From the NCBI GenBank assembly GCA_027037055.1, contig JALWBR010000044.1, positions 1-53,953 of the forward strand: a DNA stretch of 53,953 bases, given 5' to 3'. The position numbers and the translations under genes were made by a program. This document shows positions 32,690 through 53,953 of the stretch, in pieces. Numbering within the stretch: position 1 is the stretch's first letter; every line of letters begins with the position of its first letter. The notes beneath the pieces are model-generated. The model was not told the DNA's origin, made no database searches, and saw only the letters and a list, made by a program, of their open reading frames with translations. The DNA is from Aquificales bacterium. Lineage in GTDB: Bacteria; Aquificota; Aquificia; Aquificales; Aquificaceae.

Positions 32690-32716
32690 TTTTAATGCTT
32701 TTGATATTTTTGATAA

Positions 32717-32836
32717 TTATTTACGAAATAAGTAATGAACCCCACATGAATTACATTTAAATATTGGCCAATTATTCCAATAACCTTCAGATACGATTGC
32801 ATTATTTTGACATATAACACATATTTGTTTATTCAT
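32717..32836 (-). pseudogene. 39-codon zinc-ribbon peptide, probable remnant
   Basis: A short frame, MNKQICVICQNNAIVSEGYW, continues to FKCNSCGVHYLFRK and a stop. The CxxC...CxxCG pattern is a complete small zinc ribbon. It resembles the N-terminal metal-binding piece found before SAM-methyltransferase domains in polysaccharide clusters, with the catalytic part missing. It sits alone in the 189-base gap between the flippase and FkbM genes. It may be a relic of a deleted methyltransferase or a real small protein. Confidence 0.4.
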
Positions 32837-32878
32837 AATTTCGCGTTTTCAAAAGAAATATAAGTCTAATGTAATCAC

Positions 32879-34141: not shown

Positions 34142-35282
34142 TCTTCAGTTCATTGTATTTTGTTTTTAGACTCGGGAGTTTTTCCATTGCGAGTGCTATT
34201 GATACACTCATGAAGAGTGAAAAGATAAAGGCAATGGCAATGTTTTGCTTTTTTTTGGGCTTTACGGGTTTGTTCGGTAGATAGGGCGGGTCTATGACTT
34301 CAACGAAGATGTTGTCCCTCTGTTCTTCAATTTTGGCTTGTTCATATAGCTTTAAGAGTGATTCATATTTGGTTTGCAAATTTTTTACTTTTACAAATAC
34401 CTTTTGGAACTCAGCCATTTTTTCGGGAGCCTGCTCTAAGCCGGGCAGGGCGGACATACCTTCTCCCTTCCTTTCTATACTTGATAATTGTCTATCTATT
34501 GCCCTTATTTGTTCTTTTATATACTTTATCTGCGGATTTTCCTCCGAGAGAACGCTCCTTAATCTTCTCAGCTCTATCTGTAAAGCTATCTTCTGTGATA
34601 TAAGTTCGGAGTAAAGCTTGAAGGATCCCTTTACCTGTTCTTCGGGAATTATAACCTTTTCCTGTCTTTGAAACTCGGTAAGCTTTGCGAGTGTCCTTTT
34701 TAATTCCTTCTCCGTGTCCTTCAGTTGTTGTTCTAAGAAAACCCTGTTTGCCTTTGCAAGAGTAAAGGATTTTTCATTAAGTATCCTTTGTAGCTCCTCA
34801 ATATAGGCACGGGCTATCTTTTGGGCTATGGCTGGGTCTTTGTACTCCACTCCTATGGTTATTACACCGGTTTTTTTCTTCTGTGATATACTTACCATGT
34901 CTTTTAAAACTCCCGCGGCTACATAAACAGGATCTATGTCCTCGGGTATTTCTTCAAGAAGCTCATCAACGAGATTAAGCTTTTTTATAACCCTTTCTTT
35001 TATAGTTCTGCTTTCTAACACCGCCATTATCTTTGCTGCTGGGTCCTGGGCTGTTAACGATATTCCCGAAAACTGTCCTATCAGTTCCGCTATACCCGGA
35101 ACTGTTTTACCCGAAGCTACCGGTATTATGGATGCTTCCGATCTATATATAGGAGTCAGTAAAAAGCTTACCACTCCCGCTGAAAGGGTTGTACATACAA
35201 CAATTAATATTATTATCTTTCTCCTTTTCAGGAGTATTTTTATTATCTCTTCATAAATCTGTAATTCCTTTTGTTCTTCCAT
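34119..35282 (-). CDS. Wzz-like polysaccharide co-polymerase
   Basis: About 387 aa from the ATG at 35280-35282 (MEEQKELQIYEEII), just after the upstream stop; a start at 35363 would lie inside the export gene. It has an N-terminal membrane helix (KIIILIVVCTTLSAGVVSFLL) followed by TPIYRSEASIIP, the Wzz start block. A long coiled-coil periplasmic part and a C-terminal helix come next, preceded by VIDPPYLPNKPVKPKKK, the Pro-rich Wzz end block. There is no C-terminal tyrosine-kinase domain. It sets polymer length. Confidence 0.9.
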   Translation of the reverse strand: MEEQKELQIYEEIIKILLKRRKIIILIVVCTTLSAGVVSFLLTPIYRSEASIIPVASGKTVPGIAELIGQFSGISLTAQDPAAKIMAVLESRTIKERVIKKLNLVDELLEEIPEDIDPVYVAAGVLKDMVSISQKKKTGVITIGVEYKDPAIAQKIARAYIEELQRILNEKSFTLAKANRVFLEQQLKDTEKELKRTLAKLTEFQRQEKVIIPEEQVKGSFKLYSELISQKIALQIELRRLRSVLSEENPQIKYIKEQIRAIDRQLSSIERKGEGMSALPGLEQAPEKMAEFQKVFVKVKNLQTKYESLLKLYEQAKIEEQRDNIFVEVIDPPYLPNKPVKPKKKQNIAIAFIFSLFMSVSIALAMEKLPSLKTKYNELKNGENGKN

Positions 35283-35284
35283 GT

Positions 35285-37681
35285 TTAAAGTCTCTGGGCA
35301 AGTATTGCTGTTGCCATTGCTTGGAATATAATTTGAACCACATCCTTTATAAGCGGTCTCCACATGGTAGGAACACTAAGTTTTGAAGGCACTACTATGG
35401 TATCACCCTCATCAAGGGTTATATCCATGAAGTCGCGGGCTATAAACAGCTTTCTGTTTTCCCATGAGAAGCCTTTAAACGAATTATGGTTCTTTCTTGA
35501 TACAACTTTACCGTTAGCTTTGATTATATAAATATTATCAAGATCCGCATCTTCTCCCGGTCCCCCCACATCGTTGAGATATTCCCTGACCGTTTTGTCC
35601 TTGATATAAGGGAGGGAAATCTGGTTATAGACATTTCCCAGTATTAACACATAGTTAGGTCTGGGCGGAACATAAATATAATCTCCGTCCTCAAGTTTTA
35701 TATTTGAGTAACTATCTTTTAGCTCCTCAAGGGTATCGGGTATATCAAGGGCTATTCTTCCCAATCCCATCTTAGCTTTCTGCTCTATAAGGTTTAACAG
35801 TTCTCTTTGCCTTTTGAGAGCCAATTGAAGGGCAAGTTTTTCTTCTTCTGAACCGCCCATAAAGGAGATTCCTTCTCTTGTCCGCGACAGGCTTTCCCTT
35901 AGTGTAAGAAGTGTTATTTGAAGGTGTTGTTGTTGAAGTCTTTTGGCGCTTTCCCTTATAAACACCAACCCTTTCGGGTAAGCATCTTCCGTATAACCCC
36001 CTGCTAATTTTAAAGCATCGTAAAGGGTCATTCCTTTTCTCAGTCTGTATATACCCGGTTTCTTTACTTCACCGAGAATTGTTACAGTTTTATCCTTCTC
36101 TGTAGGTTCTTTTAAACCTATCACTATTCTATCACCGGGCTTCAGGGTTATGTTCCCCACACCCTTGTTGAAAAGGTCATAAAGATAGACGGTTGCCATA
36201 ATATTTCCGTTTCTGAATATGTCCGCTTTTAATTCTTTTATCTCATAAAGAAAGGATATACTTCTTAAGGCTTCCATCAGGTCTATACCTTCGTAGTATT
36301 TTATTATTTTGGGATTTTTAATCTCTCCAGTAACCTCAATAGGGGGATAAACCCATTTAGGATAAAATCTTATAACATCAAGATTTTGTAGGTTTATATC
36401 CTCTTCTCCCTTGATAACCTTTATTGGAGAAAATACTATAACCTTAGGTTTATAGTGGGGAGGTTCAAACCTTATAATTTCCGCATAGTTTAGATCGGTG
36501 TCGGGCAGTGTCTTTATTTTGCCGAGTATTTTGCTTACGGTCGGATTTTCTCTGAGGGAGAAGTCTCCTGGATAGGCTACATGTCCCTCTACTTTTATTT
36601 TTTCAACAATTCCTTCTGGAGTAATCTTATTTACTATTACAAGATCCCCGTCCTTTACTTTAAACGCATCTATTTCGTCTATGGAGCTTTCATATACCTT
36701 TATTATGTTCCCCTCATACCTTTTGATCTTGATGGATTCTAAATAAGCGTCGGGGGTGGTTCCCCCCGCAAGATTTATTACATCAGCTATCGTACTTTCC
36801 TCTTTTAATTCGTATATACCGGGCCTTTTAACCGCTCCGGTTATTCCTACGGTTTTACCTACGGGCGGGACATATATAATATCGCCTTCCTTTACTTTGT
36901 AATCAACGGGGATACCGTTAATAAGGAAATCATAGAGATCTATGTGAATCTCGGTAAAGGTGTCTCCCTTTTTTCTTTTAATGATTATATTCCTTAAACT
37001 CCCGTTTTCGGATACTCCTCCCGCTTTTATAAGCACACTGAGTATATTATCTATACCCTGGGCTAAAACGGGTCCTGGTTTGTTAACAAAACCCGCGATA
37101 TAAACGGGAAAGGTTCTCAACTTGCCTATTGAGATGTCAACCCTGAAGTTTTTAAACCTCTTTGATAGCATATTGTTTAAGTCTTCCCTGAATTCACCTA
37201 CCGTTTTGCCCCATACATATATGTTTCCCAGTGACGGTATGAATATTTTTCCTTCCCTGTCAACTTCAACACTGTACATACTCTGTAATCCGAGAACATC
37301 CACAGGATCCCCCCAAAGATATATGATTATTTGATCACCGGGTCCGAGTATGTATTCATCTCCTACGGGTACTGGTGCTGATAACACGGGACGATAAAAT
37401 ATGTCGTAACCGAATTGTTTGATGTCCTTAATATCTTTGTTATTTACCTGTCCTGCCTTATTTACAATTTCCGCATTCTTACCTTCTACAAATACACTTG
37501 GAGGTGGGTATAGCTCTTGACCGGATTGTTTTATATCTCCGAATTCAAAACCCTTCTTATTTATTTGCTTATTTATACTTTCCGCGTTTCTGTTCTGTTT
37601 AAATATGTTGGCGGGTGGGGAAAATTCTTGGCTGAAAGATATATATATGAGAATCTGAAGGAGTAATAGGATTATTATCAT
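35285..37681 (-). CDS. Polysaccharide export protein with multiple SLBB domains
   Basis: A 798-aa secreted protein (signal peptide IIILLLLQILIYISFSQ). After an N-terminal 35-residue segment present twice, it has a poly-export domain (YILGPGDQIIIYLWGDP...), as in Wza. At least five SLBB repeats follow (for example VGITGAVKRPGIYELKEEST, VTILGEVKKPGIYRLRKGMT and VLILGNVYNQISLPYIKDKT). It should form the outer-membrane or periplasmic channel for the polymer. As the first gene of the 18-kb leftward cluster, its upstream region probably carries the main promoter. Confidence 0.9.
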   Translation of the reverse strand: MIIILLLLQILIYISFSQEFSPPANIFKQNRNAESINKQINKKGFEFGDIKQSGQELYPPPSVFVEGKNAEIVNKAGQVNNKDIKDIKQFGYDIFYRPVLSAPVPVGDEYILGPGDQIIIYLWGDPVDVLGLQSMYSVEVDREGKIFIPSLGNIYVWGKTVGEFREDLNNMLSKRFKNFRVDISIGKLRTFPVYIAGFVNKPGPVLAQGIDNILSVLIKAGGVSENGSLRNIIIKRKKGDTFTEIHIDLYDFLINGIPVDYKVKEGDIIYVPPVGKTVGITGAVKRPGIYELKEESTIADVINLAGGTTPDAYLESIKIKRYEGNIIKVYESSIDEIDAFKVKDGDLVIVNKITPEGIVEKIKVEGHVAYPGDFSLRENPTVSKILGKIKTLPDTDLNYAEIIRFEPPHYKPKVIVFSPIKVIKGEEDINLQNLDVIRFYPKWVYPPIEVTGEIKNPKIIKYYEGIDLMEALRSISFLYEIKELKADIFRNGNIMATVYLYDLFNKGVGNITLKPGDRIVIGLKEPTEKDKTVTILGEVKKPGIYRLRKGMTLYDALKLAGGYTEDAYPKGLVFIRESAKRLQQQHLQITLLTLRESLSRTREGISFMGGSEEEKLALQLALKRQRELLNLIEQKAKMGLGRIALDIPDTLEELKDSYSNIKLEDGDYIYVPPRPNYVLILGNVYNQISLPYIKDKTVREYLNDVGGPGEDADLDNIYIIKANGKVVSRKNHNSFKGFSWENRKLFIARDFMDITLDEGDTIVVPSKLSVPTMWRPLIKDVVQIIFQAMATAILAQRL

Positions 37682-37939: not shown

Positions 37940-38455
37940 ATGTTTAAGTTGAGGGACTTTTTAGGGGGGTTTGATTTTGGGGAGTTCGTAGAATTCCCGA
38001 AACTTTCCGTAGGATACTATAATGAAAAGGAAGTATGGAATTATATAGAACCAAAAGGTCCCGCTTGGAATATAAAGAATAAAAGACCCTTTATAGTTAT
38101 TAATACTACGGAAAAGCATGTTTACATGATATTACTTACGACTTTGGATATTAACCCCTTTCCTTGTAAGGGTGATGACAGGTACGGCATAGGTTATAAA
38201 CTTCCGGTCGTATTTTTGAAGGAGTGTGATATTAAAGAGCCTTTATGCGGATGGCTTAATAGGGAATCTCGTGTTTTTAAAAGGAAAGTGGGGGAGAAGG
38301 ATTGCAGGATAGTTATAAGGATTTCAAAGAAAGTTCTTGCAAATAATTCCGTTTTGTGCGGTAGATGTAGCAAAAGGGTATTTGACGAGCATTTAGAGTT
38401 CATTATTGATGAGGAGATTGAGGGTTGGAGGCAAAGGAATTCGGAGAACTTATAG
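37940..38455 (+). CDS. Unrecognised first gene of the CRISPR-sigma operon (possible PemK/MazF-like fold)
   Basis: A 171-aa soluble protein with a strong ribosome site (GGGAGG). The segment KRPFIVINTTEKHVYMILLTT resembles the beta-strand core of PemK/MazF-type proteins (RPvlVi....v.v.plTt), but this is weak. A CGRCSKRVFDEHLEF stretch near the C-terminus could bind metal. The last 31 bases overlap the sigma-factor gene, which starts at a TTG inside it, so the two products are probably made in fixed ratio. It could be a toxin, or an anti-sigma or partner protein. It is not one of the three published Calp proteins by order and size. Confidence 0.7.
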   Translation: MFKLRDFLGGFDFGEFVEFPKLSVGYYNEKEVWNYIEPKGPAWNIKNKRPFIVINTTEKHVYMILLTTLDINPFPCKGDDRYGIGYKLPVVFLKECDIKEPLCGWLNRESRVFKRKVGEKDCRIVIRISKKVLANNSVLCGRCSKRVFDEHLEFIIDEEIEGWRQRNSENL

Positions 38456-39105
38456 GAAGCCTTTTTAAAGGGGATATAGGAAGGGCTGACTATGACAAGC
38501 TATTTTCTTACCTTGCGGGTATATTAAGGAAACAGGGGGGTAATAGACTTTCTCGGAAAGAGATTGCTGAGGTAACGAGGGGATTTATAGTAAAGCTTTT
38601 GTCCGAGAAAGATAAGTTTATGAGTTTAATGGAAAATCCGGCTGGTTTACGGGCTTATATAGGTGTTACAGCAAAAAATTTCTTGTGTGATTATTTTAGA
38701 TCAAAAGAAAGGGATAAGGCGATACCAGAGTCGGAGATGGATCCCGGTCAGGGCAAGCGTCCCGAATATATTAACAGGGTTCCTGATCTTAAGATAATCC
38801 GCAAATATGAACTCTTAGAGCTTGAGGATGTTTTTAACAAAAAGGTAAAGCCAGAAGAGGTTAAATACTTTTGCTATTTATATGACTCAAAGAGGTATAA
38901 ATGTCTGTGGGGGGATAAATCCGACGATGCAATATACAAGGATGTTTCAAGAAAGAAACACATAGTTGAAGAGTTTGGGCAGGAAATAAAGAAACTGAAA
39001 GTGTCGGAGGAGCTTATGGAAGAGTTTATTAAAAATAAGCTGTCAGAAATTTGTGAAAAACTTCGTTCTGAAATATGTAGGGAGGCGGAAGATGACGCCT
39101 CTTGA
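38425..39105 (+). CDS. calpS: CalpS-like ECF-type sigma factor
   Basis: A 226-aa protein starting at TTG 38425 with no nearby ATG. Residues 45-97 (VTRGFIVKLLS..., then LRAYIGVTAKNFLCDYFRSK) match sigma-70 region 2, the core-binding and -10-reading helices (L+aYl...a+N...D..R+). Residues about 130-195 look like a diverged region 4, including DDAIYKDVSRKKHIVEEF. The C-terminus is a long charged helix. In Sulfurihydrogenibium the ECF sigma CalpS is held by CalpT and freed when the CRISPR protease CalpL cuts CalpT. Gene order here (sigma, partner, protease, cas10) supports the same role. Confidence 0.75.
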   Translation: MEAKEFGELIGSLFKGDIGRADYDKLFSYLAGILRKQGGNRLSRKEIAEVTRGFIVKLLSEKDKFMSLMENPAGLRAYIGVTAKNFLCDYFRSKERDKAIPESEMDPGQGKRPEYINRVPDLKIIRKYELLELEDVFNKKVKPEEVKYFCYLYDSKRYKCLWGDKSDDAIYKDVSRKKHIVEEFGQEIKKLKVSEELMEEFIKNKLSEICEKLRSEICREAEDDAS

Positions 39106-39964
39106 AAAAGTTTTGGAGATTTATAAAAAGGCATTGGAGGGAAAGGTAGAGATGGATACGGAGGATACGATGGATATTGAGGTTTTACCTGTAGATTTTT
39201 CAAACATAAAGCCTAAGGAAATAAAGGAGATTTCAAAGGAATCTGAGCTTTCTGAGGGGGATATCATAGAAATCTTTCCGAGTATAGACGGGCTTGAATT
39301 GTATCTCTTAGTATATCGTATATACACTAATGGATTTGTTGAATTGCTTCCCGTATCAAAGTTTTATGAGCTTGCAACTCCTGAGGATGTTCTGATTTAC
39401 ATTGACGGGAATCCATTTATAGTGGAGACAGATCTGGGTTTTGAGGTCCCGGAGGAGAACTTCCCGAAAAGGTTCGGAAACAGGAAGGTGTTTAAGATAG
39501 GCAGGCTTACTCCCGAAGAATTAAAGGAGGTTGAGGATGTATATGGGGGGAGGAAAAAGGGAGCTGGGGGTATGTACGGAGGTCCGAAGGAGGAATTTAA
39601 GTCTCTTGAAAGTAAGAGATACTTTGCCCTCTTTGCAAGCACCGTAATAGAGGAAGAGGAGCTTGCGGAACTGAGTCTTTTCTTTGAAAAGCACAAGGAA
39701 TACGCTTTAGTGGCTGGTGAGGAAGAAAAGACTTGGGGAGAGAAGGAAGGGATAAGGTGGTTTTATGACAGGGAGTCGGAGAGGTTGATACTTATACCTG
39801 CGGAGGAATTAAAAGGAAAAAGGAAGAGGGTTTTATTGAAGATTGAGGGGGACGAGATAGTTATCTTTGAAGGAGAGCTTCCGGAACGGATTGACATTCC
39901 CCTTTCAAAGGAAAGCTACAGCCATTCCGTTTTAATGAAGGCATTGAGGGTTGAGGATGTTTAG
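39092..39964 (+). CDS. calpT: CalpT-like sigma-sequestering substrate of the protease
   Basis: A 290-aa (about 33 kDa) protein from ATG 39092, with GGAGG upstream and a 14-base overlap with the sigma gene. The N-terminal part has LSEGDIIEIFPSIDGLELYL and LVYRIYTNGFVELLPVSKF, a small-barrel pattern compatible with the reported MazF homology of CalpT. A Gly-rich linker (YGGRKKGAGGMYGG, residues 151-164) joins a C-terminal domain of about 120 residues. CalpT is cut into pieces of about 23 and 10 kDa, so size and two-part layout agree. The assignment rests on context, size and layout rather than clear residue identity. Confidence 0.65.
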   Translation: MTPLEKVLEIYKKALEGKVEMDTEDTMDIEVLPVDFSNIKPKEIKEISKESELSEGDIIEIFPSIDGLELYLLVYRIYTNGFVELLPVSKFYELATPEDVLIYIDGNPFIVETDLGFEVPEENFPKRFGNRKVFKIGRLTPEELKEVEDVYGGRKKGAGGMYGGPKEEFKSLESKRYFALFASTVIEEEELAELSLFFEKHKEYALVAGEEEKTWGEKEGIRWFYDRESERLILIPAEELKGKRKRVLLKIEGDEIVIFEGELPERIDIPLSKESYSHSVLMKALRVEDV

Positions 39965-41642
39965 TGTTTTGGATGTAAAGGAAAAAAGAAAACTGCTTGA
40001 AGATTTCCTGAGAAAACCTTCTGGTTTATCCACAAGGGATATAAATGAACTTCTTAATGCCTTTCCCTTTGATAGTATGGAATTGAATTATCTTACTATT
40101 TTAGTTTTAAGAAAGAGAAAGGACATCGTACCTATTTATGAATTTTCTCAGAGGCTCGGTGTAAGTGAGGAAATCGCAGAGGAAGTATTGACAGTGGAGG
40201 AAAGATATGCCCTCTTCCCTGTTGCTTCGGAGAGGGAAGCAAAACTTGTTAAAGCCCTTCTGATACCCGTTAAAGAGCAAAGGATCATATTTGTCGGAAA
40301 TGAGATTCCACAGAGTTTGGAGCTTGTGGGTGAACTTACGGGAAGGGGCTTTTTTATTGTTTTTGACTCGGATTTTGATTTCAACAGAAGCGCTTCCTAC
40401 ATGCTTTCTCTTTACGCTTACCTTACATTGGGAGATCGCTTTAAAGATATAGCATTTACTGGTGTTGTTACACCTGAGGGAAAACTTGAAGAAGTAGATT
40501 TCTTAGATAAGAAAAGGGAGGTTTGCAGGAAAAAAGGAATCCCTCTCGTTTATCCTTCGGAGTGTCTAAAAGATTTGAAGGATTTGGATAAATTTATTAC
40601 ATCCTTGTCTGTACCTTTGGCGGTATTACCTAATACTGACCCTTCGCCATTTCTCGGAATATTTCCCTTTACGGAAGAATATTTGAGGGAAGTTTTTCAC
40701 CTTTCCCATACCCTCGTATATACGGATACCTTTGAGGAAACGGTAGAATCCTTTGAAAAGTTTGCAAAGTGGATAAAAGCGGTAGCTTCTGAGCTTAAAA
40801 CCATAAATGAAAAGCATATCTCTTTGAGGATAGGTATAACGGGCAATGTACTTGTAATGGTCTTTTATGCGGGTGTTGTTCTTTCAAAGACAAGGCTTGC
40901 TGTGGATTTTTATCAATATGAAAAGGGAAAATATAGAAAGGCATTCTCCATAAGCAGTGACAGGCAAATACCGGAGACGGAAGGTGTAGAGGGTATGGTA
41001 AAGGCTCATGAAACAAAGAATTTTAAAGAAATATATATAAGACTTAAAACGGATATAGAAGGGAGGGATAATGCCCTTGAATTGAAATTGCAGAAAGGCA
41101 GGGAGCTTGACGAAAACACTTTGAATATTGCCTATTTTGTGAGTAAGAGAATAAAGTCTGCGGGCGACGGTTGTAAGAAGTTGTTCCTTGAAACTTCAGT
41201 TCCTTTTGCCTTTGCCCTCGGATACTACCTTGAGGATTATATCTGTCTTGAATTGATGCACAAAGGCAAACCTGTTTATATAATTGCGCCCCCACGTCGG
41301 GGAAGTATTTATCTGACAAACGCTTTTTCCCTCAATATGCTTGAAAAGGGAAGGGCTATTGTAAATATTGAAGAGATAAGCATAGATGAAGCGTTAAGAT
41401 TTCTTGAGGAAGGTTACATATCTTACATCTCCCACTCCTCCACCGCCCAGGTTCTGGAAAATATGCTTAACATAAAGGTTGATGTAAGGCGGGAACCCTT
41501 GAGTCTCAAAAGTGGTGATATTGCTATAGTTTTTCAGGTCAAAAAAAGGCCTTCTGAAGGTCAGATTTTCACCCAAGAAGAAGTTAAAAATATAGTAGAG
41601 GAAGGCATGTTTACCTTTTACCTTGTGGAGGTGTATTACTGA
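39957..41642 (+). CDS. calpL: CalpL-like Lon-SAVED protease, cyclic-oligoadenylate activated
   Basis: A 561-aa protein from ATG 39957. Residues about 85-215 are a Lon-type protease domain without an AAA+ part. DFNRSASYMLSLYAYLT places the catalytic Ser at 145 (Lon PSAG position), and VTPEGKLEEVDFLDKKREV places the Lys at 186. The 41-residue gap compares with 43 in E. coli Lon (S679, K722). Residues about 285-561 have the two-half SAVED pattern (HISLRIGITGNVLVMVFYAG and LFLETSVPFAFALGYYLEDY). CalpL is soluble, binds cA4, oligomerises and cuts CalpT. It overlaps the calpT-like gene by 8 bases and cas10 follows at once. Confidence 0.85.
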   Translation: MFSVLDVKEKRKLLEDFLRKPSGLSTRDINELLNAFPFDSMELNYLTILVLRKRKDIVPIYEFSQRLGVSEEIAEEVLTVEERYALFPVASEREAKLVKALLIPVKEQRIIFVGNEIPQSLELVGELTGRGFFIVFDSDFDFNRSASYMLSLYAYLTLGDRFKDIAFTGVVTPEGKLEEVDFLDKKREVCRKKGIPLVYPSECLKDLKDLDKFITSLSVPLAVLPNTDPSPFLGIFPFTEEYLREVFHLSHTLVYTDTFEETVESFEKFAKWIKAVASELKTINEKHISLRIGITGNVLVMVFYAGVVLSKTRLAVDFYQYEKGKYRKAFSISSDRQIPETEGVEGMVKAHETKNFKEIYIRLKTDIEGRDNALELKLQKGRELDENTLNIAYFVSKRIKSAGDGCKKLFLETSVPFAFALGYYLEDYICLELMHKGKPVYIIAPPRRGSIYLTNAFSLNMLEKGRAIVNIEEISIDEALRFLEEGYISYISHSSTAQVLENMLNIKVDVRREPLSLKSGDIAIVFQVKKRPSEGQIFTQEEVKNIVEEGMFTFYLVEVYY

Positions 41643-41643
41643 G

Positions 41644-44535
41644 ATGGGGAAGAATGATATAAGCAACGACAGGATCTACATCGCCCTCGGCGGACTTCTC
41701 CATGATGTGGGGAAGTTTCTTCAGAGGGCTAAGAGGGAGAAATTTTTATTTGAAGATGAGGATTTGAATAAGTATTTGAATGCTTGGAATGAACAGCTTG
41801 AGGATATTTATAAATATGAACATGCATACTTTACATCAGTGTTTATTAAATTCCTTGAAAAGGGAGGCTTAATAGACTCTAAAGAGGCGGAAAAACTCAT
41901 AAATTGGGGGGCAAGACACCACAACCCGACGGATGAACTTGAGAGTGTAGTTTGTCAAATAGCGGATTGGTATTCATCTTCGGAAAGAGAGACAAAAATA
42001 AGAAGCGATATTAATTTACTTCATTCCGTTTTTGAAAGGATATCATTGGAACCTGCTGAACACAAAAAGAGTTTATTTGAGTATGCACCTTCTATGATAG
42101 AAGATTTACATGAAGATCAGAGAAGAAGTTTTGGATTCTACAGTCTCAAAGAACTGAGTACAGCAAAAGAAGTATTCCCTGTTGTTTTTAGTGGTGGCTT
42201 TGTAAGAGAAAATGGCAGCTACATTATTAAGTCTTTAGGTTCTATCCCGAAAGCTGTAAATGACTATGGAACATTATTTGGAAAATTTCTTAAAGAGATC
42301 AAAGCCTTACATAATATTAGGGATAAAAGCGAACAATTTTTAAACGCTATTTACTATATCTTTTACAAATATACATGGTGCGTTCCTGCTGCAACTTATG
42401 ATATAGAAGCTGGTAATAAACATTACCCGGCCATATCCTTGTTTGATCATTCAAGGGTTTTATCTGCTATAGCTCTTTCAATTTATGATTGGGCAATAGA
42501 TAAAGGTGTTGAAGTAAGCAGTATAAAACCAAAAGGCACTCAGTTATTGACTGATGAGGAAGAGATATTCCTTTTAGTTGAAGGAGACATAGGCGGAATC
42601 CAAAAGTTTATATTCAACATACACAAATCAAGTGAGTCGGAACTCTCTATAGCAAAGGCTCTGAGAGGACGATCGTTCTTCCTTACCATGCTTCCAGAAG
42701 TTCTTGCACGGTATATACTTAGCAAACTTGAATATCCCATAACAAACGCTCTCTTTATAGGAGGCGGTAAGTTTCAGCTTTTGATAGGGAATACTGAAAA
42801 AAATCTGAAAAAACTTAAGGAGATAGAAGATAACATCAATAAGTGGTTATTTGAAGCCTTCCACGGTGAACTAAGCATTTCTATTGCTACTGTTAAAATG
42901 AAAGGGGATGTTTTTAGGAATATTAAAAAGGAAGGAAAGGAAACTTTCCTTGACAAGGTTGAACAGCTTCAGCTTAAGCTTGACAGGAAGAAGAAAAGGA
43001 GGTTTAGGGAGCTTATATGGGACGGTAAGTTTTTAAAAGATGCAGTGAAAGCTGAATCAATATGTAATTCATGTAGAAGTTTGCCTGTATTTAAAGAAAA
43101 TCTTTGTGAATGGTGTTACAACTCTCAAAAGTGGGGAGAAATTATTCCAAAGATTAAATACGTTGCTTTTGATTTTGAACACAGGAATATAGATTTAGAT
43201 CCACAGCAAATAATGAATTTAAGAGAATTTGGAAAAGTGTATCTACTTGAAGATGAAGATCTTTCCAAAGTTAAGTATCTACCTGAAATTCTAAATATAG
43301 AAGATACGGAATTAAAAATTGAAACTAATAAAGTAGTAAACGGCTTTAAATTCATAGGGCATTCTGCACCTAAGGTGGTTAAGGAAACTTCAAACGACCT
43401 TTTGAATTTCTTGAATAATAAGCTGGAAAGTAAAAGAGGCAGAAAGCTAAAGGATGATGAAAAACTTGGTAGAAATCACATCTTACCTTTTGATTTGTTG
43501 GTGGAATTTGCAGAAGGAGACAAAAAGCTTGGATTTTTTAGAGCGGATGTTGACTACTTAGGACTTATTCTAAGCGACGGATTAAGATATAACGAGTTCG
43601 GAACTGAAGAGATATACACTATATCGCGTATAGCTACACTAAGCAGGATGTTGGATCTGTTCTTTGCGGGATATTTGAACAAGCTTGCTGAGGAAGTATC
43701 GCTTTACTATGTCAAAAATGCTATTGAAAACTATAAGCAAAGGGCGGAAAAACTCTCGGCCTCAGAAAAAGAAAGGAAAGAGCTTCTGGAGAAAATTTAT
43801 GATGAAAAGGAGAAAAAGAAAAAGCTAAAAGTGTGTTCCCTAATCTATACTGTTTACTCCGGTGGAGATGATCTTTTTATTATAGCACCTTATGATCTTG
43901 CTATAGAATTTGCCCTTAGGCTAAGGGAAGAATTTAGAAAGTTCACCTGTGAAAATCCTGAGTTTGGTATATCGGGAGGCATTTACATAGGCAGACACGA
44001 CACACCTATACATTTAGTTGCTAAATTTACGGAAGCTTTGGAAGGTAAAGCAAAAAGCCAAAGGTTAGCTAAGGATATGGTAGCTCTTTTTGACAAACCT
44101 CTTATGTGGAGTGAAGAGGTGGAATGCTTTGTGGAAAGAAAAGGTGTTATGTCTTGTGTACGGGAAAATAAAGAAGATCCTTGCAGGAAGCAAAATAGGG
44201 TACATTCTTACATTTTTCTTGAAACAGTATATAAGGATATAGTCAGCAAAATGATAAACTGGCTGAGAAAGGAAAACACAGGAGTATCAAGGGGCCTCTA
44301 TTACAAACTCCTTCAACTTTACAAGAATTATGTGGATGGGAACAGAATAGATCCGCACATATATCCCAAAATTTACTACTATGTTGGAAGAAATGTAAAG
44401 GATGAAAATGTCAGAAAAGAGCTAATAGATACGTTATTAAATGGTATGGGAGGTAGTTTAAGGGTAGAAGCTGTCATAAGTAACCTTGATGTCATTTTGT
44501 CTTTAGTTTTAATGAAAACAAGAGGAGGTAGGTAA
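41644..44535 (+). CDS. cas10: Cas10/Csm1, type III-A effector large subunit
   Basis: A 963-aa protein from ATG 41644; a TTG at 41623 lies inside calpL. It has an HD nuclease motif LLHDVGKF (H20, D21), then two Palm domains. A zinc site CNSCRSLPVFKENLCEWC lies near residue 475. The second Palm carries intact GGDD (residues 740-743, in VYSGGDDLFIIAP), needed to make cyclic oligoadenylates from ATP. The C-terminal helical domain is the D4 type. Both HD single-strand DNase and cyclase activities are therefore expected when target RNA is bound. It makes the signal for the CalpL-like and Csx1-like effectors. Confidence 0.97.
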   Translation: MGKNDISNDRIYIALGGLLHDVGKFLQRAKREKFLFEDEDLNKYLNAWNEQLEDIYKYEHAYFTSVFIKFLEKGGLIDSKEAEKLINWGARHHNPTDELESVVCQIADWYSSSERETKIRSDINLLHSVFERISLEPAEHKKSLFEYAPSMIEDLHEDQRRSFGFYSLKELSTAKEVFPVVFSGGFVRENGSYIIKSLGSIPKAVNDYGTLFGKFLKEIKALHNIRDKSEQFLNAIYYIFYKYTWCVPAATYDIEAGNKHYPAISLFDHSRVLSAIALSIYDWAIDKGVEVSSIKPKGTQLLTDEEEIFLLVEGDIGGIQKFIFNIHKSSESELSIAKALRGRSFFLTMLPEVLARYILSKLEYPITNALFIGGGKFQLLIGNTEKNLKKLKEIEDNINKWLFEAFHGELSISIATVKMKGDVFRNIKKEGKETFLDKVEQLQLKLDRKKKRRFRELIWDGKFLKDAVKAESICNSCRSLPVFKENLCEWCYNSQKWGEIIPKIKYVAFDFEHRNIDLDPQQIMNLREFGKVYLLEDEDLSKVKYLPEILNIEDTELKIETNKVVNGFKFIGHSAPKVVKETSNDLLNFLNNKLESKRGRKLKDDEKLGRNHILPFDLLVEFAEGDKKLGFFRADVDYLGLILSDGLRYNEFGTEEIYTISRIATLSRMLDLFFAGYLNKLAEEVSLYYVKNAIENYKQRAEKLSASEKERKELLEKIYDEKEKKKKLKVCSLIYTVYSGGDDLFIIAPYDLAIEFALRLREEFRKFTCENPEFGISGGIYIGRHDTPIHLVAKFTEALEGKAKSQRLAKDMVALFDKPLMWSEEVECFVERKGVMSCVRENKEDPCRKQNRVHSYIFLETVYKDIVSKMINWLRKENTGVSRGLYYKLLQLYKNYVDGNRIDPHIYPKIYYYVGRNVKDENVRKELIDTLLNGMGGSLRVEAVISNLDVILSLVLMKTRGGR

Positions 44536-44536
44536 G

Positions 44537-45112
44537 ATGAGTGAGGTTGGAGTAAATAGCAAGCTTGAGGGCGTTTATCAGAAGGCGAAGCATATAGTAG
44601 AAAATATATATCCACGTATAAAAGAGCTACAAGCTAAGCAAAAGGATATAAGGAATAAGGAGGAATTGCAGAAGATAAGGGATGAAATGAACAGATTGAA
44701 GAGAAAGCACAGGGATGTTTACGAGTCAATTATTGATGGAACTTTAGAATCGTGGAAGGAGGTGAAAATATCCGAAATCCAGAATATAGACGATATGGAC
44801 TTATTTATAAGACCTTCTGGCATTGCAGAAGCCATAGCTTGCTCAATTGATTTTAAAACTACACAGCTTAGAAAGATCTTCCACCAATTAAGGTCATTAC
44901 AGTATGAAGCAAAACAAGGTGGTTTTAAACCCTATAAAGTTAAGAAGGTGATAGCCTTACTTGCTTATTCTGCAGGTAGAAGGTTGATAGATCATAAGTT
45001 TTTTGAGCTATCTAAGGAGCTATTATCAAAAGTAGAAAATGAGAACGACCTAAATGTTGTCGTTGAGCTTTTAGAGGCTATCGTTGCATATAGGAAATAC
45101 TACGAGTCATAA
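44537..45112 (+). CDS. csm2: Csm2 small subunit
   Basis: A 191-aa all-helical protein following cas10 at once, with GGAGG upstream. The C-terminal 120 residues fit Csm2 (TTQLRKIFHQLRSLQYEAK, then KPYKVKKVIALLAYSAGRR). About 60 extra N-terminal residues form a charged coiled coil (YPRIKELQAKQKDIRNKEEL), which makes it longer than the usual 120-145. Csm2 lines the crRNA-target duplex in the effector filament. Confidence 0.88.
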   Translation: MSEVGVNSKLEGVYQKAKHIVENIYPRIKELQAKQKDIRNKEELQKIRDEMNRLKRKHRDVYESIIDGTLESWKEVKISEIQNIDDMDLFIRPSGIAEAIACSIDFKTTQLRKIFHQLRSLQYEAKQGGFKPYKVKKVIALLAYSAGRRLIDHKFFELSKELLSKVENENDLNVVVELLEAIVAYRKYYES

Positions 45113-45126
45113 GGGAGGTGTGAACT

Positions 45127-45978
45127 ATGGGGTTTGATAAGCTACTTGAAGGAGTTTTAAAGCTGAAGGTGATAATTAGAGCTAAAACAGGTCTCCACAT
45201 CGGTGGTGCGAAGGAAAATGTGGAAATTGGAGGAATTGATAACATAGTGGAGAAGCTAAAGGTTTTCTTCACTGCGGAAAAAGTAAATGGCAAAGATAAA
45301 TTCTTAGATGTTCCCTACATTCCTGGATCTTCTTTAAAGGGGAAGATGAGGAGTCTCCTTGAGTGGATAGAGAAGCCTCAATATAGTGACACTAATAACT
45401 TTGATAACACCAAACCCGTAGCTTTGGCTCCTAGGAAAGAGGATAAAAGGGGACAACCTTGTGGTTGTGGCAAATGTAAAATATGTAAACTATTTGGCGC
45501 TCATCAAGCTCAAGGACAAGAACCAGTTAGGTTAAGATTTGATGACTTTTATCCTACATGCGATACCATAAAGCTTTGGGAAAACACTCTTGATAGTGGT
45601 TATGTGGAAATCAAAGTTGAGAATATGATCAATAGAATAAAGGGTGTTGCTGAAAATCCACGACACACAGAGAGAGTAATAGCAGGTTCAGAGTTTGAGG
45701 GTTATATAACCTTAAGAATCTTTGAAGGTGACAACTTAGATCAATTCCTTGAAACCTTAAAAACAGGCTTTGAGATGCTTGAAGATGACTATCTTGGTGG
45801 ATCGGGCTCAAGAGGGTATGGTAGAGTTGAAATAAAATTGGTTGAGTATGAATATAAAAAGATTGATAACGGCAAATATGTAAATGCAAGCGAGGATAGT
45901 GAAATTAAAAAAGCGTTGAAAGGTGTTTTTCCAGAACTTGTTAATGAAGGAGAAGTTCAAAATGCTCAAGCTTTATAG
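45127..45978 (+). CDS. csm3: Csm3, crRNA-binding backbone and target RNase
   Basis: A 283-aa RAMP protein with GGAGG upstream. TGLHIGGAKENVEIGGIDNI contains the conserved GGID, with catalytic Asp at 38, which cuts target RNA at 6-nt steps. YIPGSSLKGKMRSLLEW is the RAMP block. A Cys cluster (CGCGKCKICKLFGAH) and the Gly-rich loop GGSGSRGYGRVEIKL are also present. It is somewhat long for the family. Backbone copies bind the crRNA repeat-spacer. Confidence 0.95.
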   Translation: MGFDKLLEGVLKLKVIIRAKTGLHIGGAKENVEIGGIDNIVEKLKVFFTAEKVNGKDKFLDVPYIPGSSLKGKMRSLLEWIEKPQYSDTNNFDNTKPVALAPRKEDKRGQPCGCGKCKICKLFGAHQAQGQEPVRLRFDDFYPTCDTIKLWENTLDSGYVEIKVENMINRIKGVAENPRHTERVIAGSEFEGYITLRIFEGDNLDQFLETLKTGFEMLEDDYLGGSGSRGYGRVEIKLVEYEYKKIDNGKYVNASEDSEIKKALKGVFPELVNEGEVQNAQAL

Positions 45979-46945
45979 CCTTAAATTCCTTTCAAAAAGC
46001 ACACCCGTAAGAGCATATACGCTCTTCGGGGCAATATGTTGGGTATATAGATTAATAGGTGGGGATCTGGAAAAACTTTTAAATGATTTTAGAAATGGAA
46101 ATCCACCTTTTATAATTTCTTCGCCTTTCCCTATTGTGGAAAGCAATTGCGGTCTTTCCCTTGTTTTCCCTAAGCCTGTTTTGGTTATCTCTGATGAGGT
46201 TAGAAGAGATTATAGTATCTACGAAAAAATAAGGCGCAAACCTATAAAGAAAGCGCGTTATGTTTCTTTTAGTGTTTTCAAAAGAATATTAGAAGGTGAG
46301 GTAAAAGAAGAAAGACTCATTTCTGATCCTGAAAAATTTGAGGAAACGGAAAAGGTTATAGTGCAAAGAGGTGATAAGGAATGTTTTAAAGATTTCGGTG
46401 GACTTTCTGTTAGGAATGTACTTAACAGAGTAACTATGAAATCTGAAAATCTTTTTACAGAGGAGTATTACCTATTTTCGGATAAGTGGTTTCTTGTAAA
46501 GTTTTATGACAGCGGGTTTAAACCTATGCTTGAAGAGTGCTTTAAATTAATTGAAGATACAGGGCTCGGCGCGAACAAAAACCTCGGATGGGGTAATGTG
46601 AAGATAGAACCTCTTGAAGGATTTGATAAAGAAACAGAGTATCTTGAAAAAAAGGTAAATAGGTCAGAAAAGTTTATTACACTTTCACCAGTTATACCGA
46701 AGAAGGAGACTCTGGATATAGATAACAGCACCTATGAATATGAAATTTATAAATCTCCAATAGATACTACATTTGGTGAGGCACTTATATGGAAAAGGAA
46801 GGTTCTTTATCTTAATGAAGGTTCGGTTTTAAAAAGAAGGGGAGACGACAAATGGGTGGGATGTGTTAAGGATGTGGGAGCTGAGGATATAGGAATTAAA
46901 GCATATCAATATGGGTATGAGTTTCCTGTAGCGGTGGGAGGTTAG
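45962..46945 (+). CDS. csm4: Csm4, crRNA 5-prime-end-binding RAMP
   Basis: About 327 aa from ATG 45962 (MLKLYSLKFLS), with AGGAG nine bases upstream and a 17-base overlap with csm3. A start at 45923 would lie deeper in csm3. The N-terminus SKSTPVRAYTLFGAICWVYRLIG is the typical Csm4 opening. The Gly-rich loop is TGLGANKNLGWGNVKIEPL. Csm4 caps the complex and binds Cas10 and the repeat-derived handle of the crRNA. Confidence 0.93.
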   Translation: MLKLYSLKFLSKSTPVRAYTLFGAICWVYRLIGGDLEKLLNDFRNGNPPFIISSPFPIVESNCGLSLVFPKPVLVISDEVRRDYSIYEKIRRKPIKKARYVSFSVFKRILEGEVKEERLISDPEKFEETEKVIVQRGDKECFKDFGGLSVRNVLNRVTMKSENLFTEEYYLFSDKWFLVKFYDSGFKPMLEECFKLIEDTGLGANKNLGWGNVKIEPLEGFDKETEYLEKKVNRSEKFITLSPVIPKKETLDIDNSTYEYEIYKSPIDTTFGEALIWKRKVLYLNEGSVLKRRGDDKWVGCVKDVGAEDIGIKAYQYGYEFPVAVGG

Positions 46946-46947
46946 TG

Positions 46948-48315
46948 ATGGGAAATTCATTTAAAATTGAAACCTTATCGCCTGTTCACATTGGAAGTGG
47001 TAACACTTTCAAACCTATGGATATTGGGGAGTATGAAAGATATATATACATATTTGACTTTGATAAAGTTATTGAAAAGATACCAGAGCATAGCATAGAT
47101 AAGTTTTCTGAATTAATAATTAATTTTGGTGATAAAAATAAAAACAAATATAAAGACATGGGGCAAATGCTTTTGGAAGCATTCGGAATAGGTTATGAAC
47201 AGTGGGAGGAGATAAGCTCATACAAAGTTAAGAGAAAAGATATAGGGCAAATACATGAGATTTATGAAGCATTGAAATATGGTAACAAAGTTTATATACC
47301 TGGAAGCTCTATAAAAGGTGCAATAAGGACTGCGATAGTTTATTCCTTTTTAAAGAGAGAAGGTTACAAATTCTATTTAAAGGAAACTGAAAGGATAAAG
47401 TATCTGTGTATGATTAAACCTAATGACGAAGAGGTTGAGGGAGTCTATAAGGGTAATGTTGATTTGTCCAAGATTGAGGAAGAAATAAAAAAAGACATGC
47501 TTATGGATGATGCTACAAGGGATGTATTTAAGTGTCTAAATATATCTGATTCTTTTCCAATTCCTGCTGAGAATTGCTTGGAAGTTAGGAAAATTTATGT
47601 TGCCAATACAACCTCGTTTGTCAAACAGCGTGGGTCAAAAAAAATTAGTATACACCCTTTATTTGTGGAGTGTATAAGACCAGGTGAAGTTTTCAATGGC
47701 TTAAAGATTAAAGTGAATGATAAAGCAATTGAAGCACTTTCAGAAATTTACAGGAATAGAAAACATACTTTTGATAAAATCACTGAGCTTATAAAAAACT
47801 GGCGATCTTGCCTTATGGAATTCACTAAGGATCTTATAAATGCAGAAAAGAGCTTTTGGCAGAACAATAGTCATGATATAAAGGTGAATATAACATCAGC
47901 ATATGGCAATTCCCCTCACAAGTACATAACAAAAGAATTCAAAATAGAAGATTTGATTAAAAGCTTGGAGGATATTGAACAGAGCGGGCAAGTGTTAATT
48001 AGAATAGGTAAATATTCTGGATATCTAACTCACAGCATAGGTTTATTGATTGCTAAAGGATTGTCAGGAACTTCTTATAATCTTGCAGGTTTTGGGAAGA
48101 TTCTTTCTATATACAATCACGACGAACTCTTTCCCCTCACCCGCCGTTTAACCCTTGACAATCAAACTCTTGGTTGGTGCAAGTTGGTGGAAAGTAATGA
48201 TAGTGAAAACGAGGATTCTGAATATCTAGGAAATAGTGACTCTGAGAATAAGCAGAATCTTAATAGTGGTAATTTAAAAGAAGCTTTTAAATCAAAAGGA
48301 TGGAGAATAAAATGA
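46948..48315 (+). CDS. csm5: Csm5, RAMP at the crRNA 3-prime end
   Basis: A 455-aa RAMP protein from ATG 46948 (a GTG at 46945 is also possible). IETLSPVHIGSGNTFKPMD is the Csm5 start block, and YIPGSSIKGAIRTAIVYSFL the second RAMP motif. LTHSIGLLIAKGLSG... stands near the Gly-rich region. The last 45 residues are Asn/Ser/Asp/Glu-rich and probably disordered. Csm5 forms the end of the backbone and recruits trimming nucleases. Confidence 0.93.
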   Translation: MGNSFKIETLSPVHIGSGNTFKPMDIGEYERYIYIFDFDKVIEKIPEHSIDKFSELIINFGDKNKNKYKDMGQMLLEAFGIGYEQWEEISSYKVKRKDIGQIHEIYEALKYGNKVYIPGSSIKGAIRTAIVYSFLKREGYKFYLKETERIKYLCMIKPNDEEVEGVYKGNVDLSKIEEEIKKDMLMDDATRDVFKCLNISDSFPIPAENCLEVRKIYVANTTSFVKQRGSKKISIHPLFVECIRPGEVFNGLKIKVNDKAIEALSEIYRNRKHTFDKITELIKNWRSCLMEFTKDLINAEKSFWQNNSHDIKVNITSAYGNSPHKYITKEFKIEDLIKSLEDIEQSGQVLIRIGKYSGYLTHSIGLLIAKGLSGTSYNLAGFGKILSIYNHDELFPLTRRLTLDNQTLGWCKLVESNDSENEDSEYLGNSDSENKQNLNSGNLKEAFKSKGWRIK

Positions 48316-49529
48316 AAAAAGTCCTCATCTCCACACTTGGGAGGGGTCAGAAGGAAAATGGTAAGTATGACTATAAGGAGGGTGTTTACCTTCTGCCAGA
48401 TGGAAGGGAGGTTAGAACAAAGCTGGTATCAAAGGCTTTGATAGACTATATCAAACCCGATGAAGTATACATACTGGGGACACGGGAATCTCTCTGGGAT
48501 CTTGCGGATGAGCTTATAGGGAGCTATAGAAAGGTTTTAATACCGTATGGTATAAACAAGGAAGAGTTCTGGGAGATGTTCAAAATAATCCACAAAGAGG
48601 TTGATGTTTCGGGAAAAGATATATACCTTGATATTACTCACGGTTTTAGAACAATACCCCTTCTGGTGTCAACGGTGGTAAACCTGTTCAGCAAGGTGAA
48701 GGGGGCAAGGGTGAAGGGGCTTTTCTACGGAATTTTTGAGGCTAAGGATGAGAAAGGAAGAATCCCAGTGGTTGATCTCCTTCCCATACTTGAGCTTAAT
48801 GAATGGATAGAGGGGTTTACTCTATTCAAAAACTACGGGGACGGAGATTTTCTTGCGGAATTGATAGAGGAAAAATTATCAGGGCTTAAGCCTGAGCTTA
48901 GAAGGGAGGCAGGGGATTTGAAAAAGCTTCCTAAGTTACTCAGGAAGTATTCACAGGCGGTCGGATTTACCGCGGTAAACTTTATACCTGAGTTTACCGG
49001 TCAGGTTGTGCAACTTATTAACAACATTAAAAGTGTACCTGCTGATTTTAATTCTATGGAGCTTTTAAAAGCATCCCTCAATGAAACATACGAGGAGGTC
49101 AAGAAGGAAGATGCGGAAGAATGGAAGAATCAGTATAAGATTGTTAAATGGTTGTTTAACAAGAGAAGATACTCTCAGGCTACTATAGCCCTTGAAGAAT
49201 GTATATTTACTTATGTGCTTGAGAAGTTGGGTATTGATATTCTAAATCAGGATATTAGAAAGAAATTGGGAGGTATTTTTAACAAGGATAAAAATCAGCA
49301 TGAGATCTTTTCGCAGGAGTTAAATGAACTCTTCAGCAAAATTCAGGATCTTAGAAATAAAACGGGGCATGCCTTTATGCAAAAGAATGCCACGGAGGGA
49401 CATATAAAGGATGCAATTGATAAACTAAAAAACTACATAGAGGAAACCTACAAAGGTTTGAACGATAATAACACGGATAATATCAAAAACAAGGAAGAAC
49501 TAAAAAAATACATAGATTTTGGTAAATAA
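48312..49529 (+). CDS. csx1: Csx1/TM1812-type CARF-HEPN ribonuclease
   Basis: About 405 aa from ATG 48312, overlapping the csm5 stop as ATGA. The N-terminal CARF (Rossmann) domain starts VLISTLGRGQ and has YLDITHGFRTIPLLVS (DITHG at 107-111), hallmarks of TIGR02221/TM1812 proteins. The C-terminal HEPN domain has DLRNKTGHAF, an RxxxxH site with R348 and H353. Family members are switched on by cyclic oligoadenylate (usually cA4) and cut single-stranded RNA without sequence specificity. It is the second signal-driven effector of this operon. The ring size used here is not known. Confidence 0.92.
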   Translation: MKKVLISTLGRGQKENGKYDYKEGVYLLPDGREVRTKLVSKALIDYIKPDEVYILGTRESLWDLADELIGSYRKVLIPYGINKEEFWEMFKIIHKEVDVSGKDIYLDITHGFRTIPLLVSTVVNLFSKVKGARVKGLFYGIFEAKDEKGRIPVVDLLPILELNEWIEGFTLFKNYGDGDFLAELIEEKLSGLKPELRREAGDLKKLPKLLRKYSQAVGFTAVNFIPEFTGQVVQLINNIKSVPADFNSMELLKASLNETYEEVKKEDAEEWKNQYKIVKWLFNKRRYSQATIALEECIFTYVLEKLGIDILNQDIRKKLGGIFNKDKNQHEIFSQELNELFSKIQDLRNKTGHAFMQKNATEGHIKDAIDKLKNYIEETYKGLNDNNTDNIKNKEELKKYIDFGK

Positions 49530-51242: not shown

Positions 51243-51683
51243 TTAATTCAATGTAACAGAAGCGCTTTTTGTACTGCAATTCTTATTTTTTTCTTTGCAT
51301 GCTTCAATGACTATGTATCCGTTCTTTTTAGGTAGAGGCACACATTGACCGATGGTTTCACATATAATACTATAACAATTATAAATATCGTTGTATCCCC
51401 AATATGTGCATTCCACTGATACTTCCTTTTTGTTAGTCTCTGCTGTTAGAATATAGTAGTTATTTTTGTCACTCGGCAGTGTTGAGGTTGGTGATAGGTA
51501 TAAGTTTACATAATATGTTTTGTCATAGTTTACTTTCCACGATATTGTGAACTTCTCATAAGGTTGAAGAGAGGAGGGATTTACGCTTAAGGAGACAATA
51601 AAACCACCTGTCCCGCAGGCTACAATAAATAACACAAATACAAAGATACCGATATTAATCCTGTTAAATAAATTTTTAAGCAT
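51243..51683 (-). CDS. Small lipoprotein, unknown function
   Basis: A 146-aa product with signal peptide and lipobox (FVLFIVACGTGG). The mature part VSLSVNPSSLQPYEKFTISW has an Ig-like strand pattern. Five or six Cys in the C-terminal half (for example CTYWGYNDIYNCYSIIC) suggest disulfides, so it is probably exported to an oxidising location. GGAGG precedes the ATG on the minus strand. It and the larger lipoprotein lie in tandem, about 150 bases apart. Function unknown. Confidence 0.7.
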   Translation of the reverse strand: MLKNLFNRINIGIFVFVLFIVACGTGGFIVSLSVNPSSLQPYEKFTISWKVNYDKTYYVNLYLSPTSTLPSDKNNYYILTAETNKKEVSVECTYWGYNDIYNCYSIICETIGQCVPLPKKNGYIVIEACKEKNKNCSTKSASVTLN

Positions 51684-53452: not shown

Positions 53453-53472
53453 CCTATAGACTTGCTTAAATA

Positions 53473-53953
53473 GCTACAATCCCTTCACTTTCTTAGGGCA
53501 TTTCAACTGTGGAGATTGATGGATGGGAAATAGGGGTAGAGCTTGAAGGGTCGCAATCCCTTCACTTCCTTAGGGCATTTCAACTGGGAAGCACACGACC
53601 TGATCATTGATGAGGATAGCTTGTCGCAATCCCTTCACTTCCTTAGGGCATTTCAACTTAATTCTGTTTAATCCTCATTACCCGTTTAACCCTATTAAGT
53701 CGCAATCCCTTCACTTCCTTAGGGCATTTCAACCACTAAAAGTAAGGAGGTGTAGCGATGAACGTGGAGGGTCGCAATCCCTTCACTTCCTTAGGGCATT
53801 TCAACCCAGAACAACTCCGCCACCACCCAAAACCCTCCCCTCCAAGTCGCAATCCCTTCACTTCCTTAGGGCATTTCAACCGGAGAGAAGCTTAGCGGTA
53901 TGGAAGAAACTTGGGAGCGTCGCAATCCCTTCACTTCCTTAGGGCATTTCAAC
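53473..53953 (-). CRISPR. CRISPR array, seven repeats, continues past the right edge
   Basis: The 35-base repeats (plus strand GTCGCAATCCC..., ending CTTAGGGCATTTCAAC) start at 53473, 53550, 53623, 53699, 53771, 53846 and 53919. The last six are identical. The first has three changed bases near its left end and one in the middle. Spacers are 42, 38, 41, 37, 40 and 38 bases. Read on the minus strand the repeat starts GTTGAAAT and ends ATTGCGAC, resembling the AUUGAAAC-type crRNA handle. Together with the degenerate left repeat this implies leftward transcription from a leader beyond the window. It probably feeds the nearby type III-A complex. Confidence 0.96.

Follow-up and report, generated by a model that had tools for sequence, protein, structure and literature searches.

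In Sulfurihydrogenibium, the protease CalpL, once activated by cyclic tetra-adenylate (cA4), reportedly cuts CalpT and thereby frees CalpS. The operon described here is a diverged relative of that system and lies at 37940-41642 on contig JALWBR010000044.1 of a thermophilic Aquificales bacterium (GenBank assembly GCA_027037055.1, Aquificota); the stretch analysed, positions 1 to 53,953 of the forward strand, is called the window below. It comprises a gene of an unnamed family (gene 1), homologues of CalpS and CalpT, and a CalpL-type protease, and it stands directly before the cas10 gene of a complete type III-A CRISPR (clustered regularly interspaced short palindromic repeats) locus. The window protease is a variant and not a standard CalpL, as it carries an extra Crn2 domain after the SAVED domain. 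The Sulfurihydrogenibium protein (SsCalpL) ends after SAVED and keeps the SAVED ring-nuclease residues, whereas the window protease adds Crn2 and is without those residues, which are a reported property of SsCalpL and not a criterion defining the CalpL family. The SAVED domain of SsCalpL degrades cA4, and His392 on the upper face, along with Arg361, Lys364 and Lys366 on the lower face, matters for this activity (PMC11417357). Mutation of His392 or Lys364 impairs ring cleavage, the His392Ala variant being slower, with CalpT proteolysis reaching completion (PMC11417357).

The features shared with the CalpL/T/S system of Sulfurihydrogenibium sp. YO3AOP1 (7qda, 8b0u) are the CalpS-CalpT-CalpL order, the Lon Ser/Lys pair, the SAVED domain, a two-domain CalpT with a small-residue cut site (predicted in the window), a sigma-family CalpS and a counterpart of gene 1 (L053:8293-8838). 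The identity between the two systems is about 20%, and the effector genes, which are of type III-A in the window, are different and Cmr-like in the reference. The operon of genome G099 was used as this reference because its CalpL and the published Sulfurihydrogenibium protein have the same sequence throughout the region aligned.

Csx1-Crn2 of Marinitoga piezophila (PMC7293037; 8y6z, 8y7f, 8y7g) is likewise an effector that responds to cA4 and curbs its own activation through a C-terminal Crn2, and this fusion was termed so far unique in 2020 (PMC7293037). The Marinitoga effector is a CARF-HEPN ribonuclease, whereas that of the window is a Lon-SAVED protease predicted to act on an anti-sigma factor. 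The AcrIII-1/Crn2 proteins (SIRV1 protein, 2x4i, 6scf) have the DUF1874 fold and catalytic residues identical to those of the window domain, but they are small, stand-alone and mostly viral, while the window Crn2 is part of a host effector. CCaCalpL, which forms a SAVED-Lon filament (9eyi-9eyk), is also a Lon-SAVED effector and was the second-ranked Foldseek match; the titles of its PDB entries name no Crn2. The SAVED domain of the viral ring nuclease AcrIII-2 (9r8s; PMC12751052) is akin to that of CalpL, but AcrIII-2 stands alone and retains SAVED ring cleavage. Both the Calp cascade and the principle of an effector-ring nuclease fusion (Csx1-Crn2) are already known. No mention of a Lon-SAVED-Crn2 protease with lost SAVED ring-nuclease residues was found in the literature searched, and an earlier mention may exist.

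The Lon-SAVED-Crn2 protease

The protease has the following features, all on the + strand; residues are numbered from the TTG at 39951 unless stated otherwise.

39957..41642, +: CalpL::Crn2 (Lon-SAVED-Crn2), 561 amino acids from the ATG, 563 from the TTG at 39951
40395..40397, +: Lon catalytic Ser149 (Ser147 from the ATG at 39957), aligned to CalpL Ser152
40512..40514, +: Lon catalytic Lys188 (Lys186 from the ATG at 39957), aligned to CalpL Lys193
40626..41297, +: SAVED domain, about residues 226-449 (NCBIfam SAVED, 1.5e-7; Foldseek matches to SAVED structures)
41298..41639, +: Crn2 (DUF1874/AcrIII-1) domain, residues 450-563 (Pfam PF08960, 1e-20)
41433..41435, +: predicted catalytic His495 of Crn2 (His493 from the ATG), by alignment to the catalytic His of AcrIII-1

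A first-pass annotation of the window had proposed that a Lon protease is fused here to a SAVED-like sensor, and this is borne out by PADLOC (SAVED4-SAVED_LON_TM, 6e-40; CRISPR-Lon, 4e-33), by the phmmer match to CalpL 7qda (1.7e-14) and by the Foldseek match of the AlphaFold2 model to the 7qda crystal structure (E=1e-24; predicted local distance difference test, pLDDT, 92.7). The NCBIfam SAVED match (1.5e-7) falls slightly below its cut-off of 33 bits, and the SAVED fold is backed by Foldseek. From the catalytic dyad named in that annotation, Ser145 and Lys186 of the protein at 39957, the lysine stands, while the serine lies two residues away, at Ser147. The pair, Ser149/Lys188 in the numbering used here, aligns with Ser152/Lys193 of CalpL and is invariant in 59 of 59 aligned rows.

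Residues 450-563 form a ring nuclease domain of the DUF1874/AcrIII-1 type, which makes the protease a triple fusion. The Pfam PF08960 match (1e-20) reaches 74.1 bits against a curated cut-off of 26, and the domain matches 2x4i, 6scf and 8y7f by sequence and 6scf by Foldseek on the model. The nine full-length fusions found carry Ser460, His495, Gln529, Arg533 and Glu536 without exception; in alignments, His495 falls on the AcrIII-1 catalytic His and on the Crn2 His of Marinitoga Csx1-Crn2. With its predicted catalytic residues intact, the Crn2 domain should destroy the alarm signal. Stand-alone Crn2-like genes also occur in Aquificota (L065:1812-2420 in G108, L063:1371-1718 in G005, L064:3553-3879 and L071:9426-9734 in G060); those of G108 and G005 share about 50% identity with the fused domain and are candidate sources or split-off copies.

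The SAVED residues were counted in 50 unfused rows (49 loci) and in the nine fusions; these and all other genome comparisons were confined to the phylum of the window (136 genomes). Of the 50 unfused rows, 47 retain the equivalent of His392, against none of the fused proteins, and the same contrast applies to His345 (49/50 vs 0/9) and to Lys/Arg364 (49/50 vs 0/9). The equivalent of Arg361 is retained in seven of the nine. The loop at 391-392 is histidine-free in all nine fusions, though the alignment there is loose; in both sequence and model, the loop and helix bearing His392 have become a short hairpin. The fused SAVED domain shows a separate set of invariant residues, among them His250, His437, Lys313, Tyr328 and Asp337, and the mean identity inside the fused clade is 0.53 for Crn2, 0.439 for SAVED and 0.434 for Lon. 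Since SAVED evolves no faster than Lon and has its own invariant residues, it appears to be under selection, and it probably still binds a ligand.

The order gene 1-CalpS-CalpT-CalpL::Crn2 recurs in G014 (two copies), G010, G002, G063, G059, G107 and G061 (split across contigs), and therefore the order of the four genes in the window is not due to chance. G018 has the cassette without gene 1. The cassettes of G014, G059 and G061 sit ahead of cas10, that of G010 adjoins cas6 and cas1, that of G063 is near csm genes and cas1, and that of G018 adjoins csx1. In G002 (L058) and G107 (L054), complete cassettes including gene 1 stand among non-CRISPR genes, in surroundings where no cas genes were found, which suggests a cassette able to move alone or to act in trans. 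The search of plasmids found no relative, and the matches among phages and viral contigs were to the Crn2 domain alone, the fused protein being absent from them. In G014 the whole cassette is present twice, in diverged forms (L055, L056) that are each followed by a cas10, and there is a third fragment.

CalpS, CalpT and the gene heading the operon

The three genes ahead of the protease, with the predicted cut site, are as follows.

37940..38455, +: gene 1, 171 amino acids, Calp-associated family, unnamed
38425..39105, +: CalpS homologue (sigma factor), 226 amino acids, TTG start overlapping gene 1
39092..39964, +: CalpT homologue (anti-sigma), ATG start, 290 amino acids, 33.4 kDa, two linker-joined domains
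39713..39721, +: predicted CalpL cut site in CalpT, Ala208-Gly209-Glu210 (YALVAG/EEE)

The homology of the window CalpS and CalpT had to come from profiles, because a Pfam search with the single sequences gave nothing useful. In hidden Markov model searches of a small set of open reading frames, the fused-clade CalpS profile matched Sulfurihydrogenibium CalpS (E=5e-24) and the fused-clade CalpT profile matched SsCalpT (E=5e-10). Profile-profile comparison of the window-type and classic CalpT groups gave E=5.5e-28 across 256 columns, and the PADLOC CRISPR-T model matched the window CalpT at 1.5e-4. Pfam Sigma70_r2 was found in 6 of 30 CalpS-family members (best 2.8e-5) and not in the window CalpS itself. 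Against PDB, the CalpS profile had only a weak sigma-H match (E=0.11) and the fused-clade CalpT profile had zero matches, while the classic CalpT profile matches CalpT10.

The solved CalpT10 chain (8b0u) starts at Ser196 of the reference CalpT, and therefore SsCalpT is most likely cut after Ala195. Residues 207-212 of the window CalpT (VAG/EEE), in the inter-domain linker, align with the Ala195/Ser196 region, and Ala208 is invariant across ten fused-clade CalpTs. The protease is thus predicted to cut next to Ala208, the exact bond being given to within one residue. The cut at Ala208 would yield pieces of about 24 and 9.7 kDa, near the published 23 and 10 kDa of the known CalpT. In G056, a 640-amino-acid open frame (L024:751-2670) apparently joins CalpT and CalpL, as a true fusion or an assembly error.

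An open reading frame of the gene 1 family lies directly 5' of CalpS in all 20 of the classic operons retrieved for this check (L120-L139) and in the reference operon (L053:8293-8838), the weakest family members being recognised by position and motif. The family heads every Calp operon examined, classic or fused, except that of G018. All 32 aligned members have Arg49, Pro50, Cys103 and Cys140, and almost all have Cys96 and Cys143; further features are a Ser or Thr at the 'LLTT' strand and the arrangement of the cysteines as Cys96/Cys103 and Cys140-x2-Cys143, which suggests a metal site. The AlphaFold2 model of gene 1 is confident (pLDDT 88.5). Searches of PDB with gene 1 gave no sequence or fold match, the window member is covered by no Pfam or NCBIfam family, and the family is unnamed in the databases searched. 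Its best fold matches in BFVD, a viral library, are PemK/MazF proteins (probability 0.98 but E=0.02, hence weak), and Pfam PemK matched none of the 32 family members. The assignment of gene 1 as a clear PemK/MazF was dropped in view of the weak fold support and the lack of a Pfam or PDB match. The NAR 2024 paper describes Calp as tripartite, and no mention of the gene 1 protein was found in the Calp papers searched, although it is present in the best-studied operon. These observations suggest that gene 1 encodes a fourth, conserved Calp partner. L123 has two tandem copies of gene 1.

The type III-A locus and its surroundings

Ten genes on the + strand, from 37940 to 49529, overlap or are separated by short gaps, in the order gene 1, CalpS-like, CalpT-like, protease, cas10, csm2, csm3, csm4, csm5 and a Csx1-type ribonuclease. 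The features downstream of the protease are listed here.

41641..44535, +: cas10 (III-A), with HD domain and SGGDD
44537..48315, +: csm2, csm3, csm4, csm5 (PADLOC)
48300..49529, +: Csx1-type CARF-HEPN ribonuclease, HEPN motif RNKTGH (PADLOC 3.6e-75 and sequence)
53455..53953, onward to contig position 54472, +: CRISPR array, starting inside the window and ending outside

The presence of cas10, csm2-csm5 and a CRISPR array assigns the locus to type III-A, and the window cas10 is the sole full Cas10 of the genome. The array has about 13 repeats, and a run of N interrupting it sets the end of the window. Further downstream on the same contig are cas2-like, cas1 and cas6-like genes (cas2 and cas6 named by eye). 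The first-pass annotation had placed an operon directly before a cas10 with an intact GGDD motif, as is the case for the four genes at 37940-41642, which precede a cas10 with SGGDD and HD. The protein at 38425, described there as sigma region 2, proved to be a CalpS homologue, with Sigma70_r2 recognised in 6 of 30 family members and not in the window protein, and the 33-kDa two-part partner corresponds to the CalpT homologue of 290 amino acids and 33.4 kDa with its linker. The outcomes set in advance to refute that proposal, a lack of structural match of the protein at 39957 to Lon plus SAVED or of the protein at 38425 to sigma region 2, did not occur: the former matches Lon plus SAVED, and the latter belongs to the CalpS sigma family. 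The proposal of a CalpL/T/S-type cascade in diverged form is supported by the homology to all three components, the operon order and the cas10 context, with a mechanism that would be the one known from homologues. The Crn2 domain, the lost SAVED ring-nuclease residues and the membership of gene 1 in a conserved family were absent from the annotation; with the fused Crn2, those losses and a fourth conserved gene heading the operon, the divergence exceeds what it had described.

The closest relatives of the window genome are Aquificales metagenome-assembled genomes. A second CRISPR array, on contig C3, has a repeat near-identical to that of the window array. On the - strand, an apparent surface polysaccharide synthesis/export cluster (28429-37681; by eye, glycosyltransferase-, flippase-, chain-length- and export-like genes) stops just ahead of the Calp operon. 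Two lipoprotein-like genes lie between csx1 and the array, also on the - strand (49566-51092 and 51243-51683), one of them with a long glycine-rich stretch. Comparison of upstream promoters for a CalpS-specific box found a TAAAAT/TATAAT-like element just 5' of the first gene in several cassettes and no common -35; therefore, no CalpS regulon is proposed.

Discussion

We consider it fairly likely that the operon is a CalpL/T/S-type module of type III-A CRISPR in Aquificota, whose protease has a dedicated off-switch, with Crn2 replacing the SAVED ring nuclease. This view is based on homology, gene order, residue conservation and predicted folds, and we infer all activities (cA4 binding, proteolysis, CalpS release, ring cleavage) from homologues. 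On binding of virus RNA by the Csm-crRNA complex, Cas10 would make cA4, which in the SAVED domain would stack the proteases and render the Lon Ser149/Lys188 site active. Lon would then cut the CalpT linker beside Ala208, giving pieces of about 24 and 10 kDa, the larger of which, with its small-residue tail exposed, would be cleared by housekeeping proteases, and the freed CalpS would redirect RNA polymerase. The fused Crn2 (His495) would cut cA4 and terminate the pulse, standing in for the SAVED ring nuclease of ordinary CalpL. As cA4 would be shared with the Csx1 of the same locus, Crn2 should limit that ribonuclease too. The signal is taken to be cA4 because the Crn2 family is cA4-specific and Csx1 is encoded in the same locus (PMC7293037, PMC11229360).

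The simplest reading of the residue pattern would be that the captured Crn2 took over signal shut-off from the SAVED sensor. Several observations weigh against it. The nine fusions form a single clade (support 100/100), and therefore Crn2 gain and histidine loss count as one evolutionary event and not nine; Crn2 may have been gained and His392 lost in a single event or by coincidence. The unfused rows L022 (G059), L027 (G061) and L085 (G123) are also without His392. G059 and G061 are sister species of the window genus and carry a fused protease besides the His392-less L022 and L027. In L085, His345 and Lys364 are missing as well, and a search of its genome for Crn2 gave no match. Moreover, His345 of SsCalpL is dispensable for ring cleavage, and the Lys364Glu and Lys366Glu mutations lowered protease activity too. 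His250 and His437, which are invariant in the fused SAVED and particular to it, make a rearranged ring-nuclease site possible; changes at several positions of the classic cA4 pocket likewise make a different ligand possible.

The rearranged site would fit an ordinary CalpL/T/S system with cA4 cleavage at both sites: the SAVED nuclease would work through different residues, and Crn2 would only add speed. The SAVED fold is intact in the model, the residues invariant in the fused clade (His250, His437, Lys313, Tyr328, Asp337) are peculiar to it, Arg361 is retained in 7/9, and Csx1-Crn2 offers a precedent with two competing cA4 sites (PMC7293037). This explanation is nevertheless rather improbable, as the equivalents of His392, His345 and Lys364 are gone in 9/9 and the His392 loop and helix are replaced by the short hairpin. 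The altered pocket, in which the conserved His345, Ala390, Ser451, Gly465 and Lys364 of classic SAVED give way to other residues throughout or almost throughout the fused clade, could mean that SAVED answers to another cyclic nucleotide and that Crn2 lowers cA4 so that the module heeds the other signal only. Crn2 and Csx1 of the same locus, however, both indicate cA4, and loci with two different cyclic oligoadenylate signals are very rare (PMC11229360), so that such a change of signal is quite unlikely.

A conversion of Crn2 into the sensor and dimer interface activating Lon, with SAVED left as a structural remnant, would agree with the ability of Crn2 proteins to form dimers and bind cA4 and with the Crn2 domain being the best conserved part (mean identity 0.53 vs 0.44 for SAVED). 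All its catalytic residues are retained, as for an enzyme rather than a sensor, and SAVED changes no faster than Lon (0.439 vs 0.434) and hence appears constrained; we regard this conversion as very unlikely. The cassettes of G002 and G107, among housekeeping genes and with no cas genes found nearby, could also indicate that the genes are homologous but that the cascade is non-functional or differently targeted in the window genome. That seems scarcely credible, since the catalytic and cut-site residues are all retained across divergent genomes and the cassette opens an apparently intact locus with a CRISPR array, cas10 and cas1.

Summarizing, the replacement of the SAVED ring nuclease by Crn2 may have a wider meaning, which we find about as much reason to accept as to doubt, namely that one clade has transferred signal destruction out of the sensor and into a viral-type ring nuclease that it captured, leaving sensing and shut-off separate and independently tunable, and that Calp is a four-part system, with a cysteine-motif gene heading the operon in essentially all Aquificota examined. 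The fourth partner may bear on what CalpS switches on. Why a CRISPR response is shut off, and for what length of time, is a live question, and the nine Lon-SAVED-Crn2 proteases, in which the SAVED ring-nuclease residues known from CalpL are missing, set beside about fifty Lon-SAVED proteases of which nearly all have them, constitute a natural swap experiment, through which the separability of sensing and signal destruction in SAVED effectors becomes testable.

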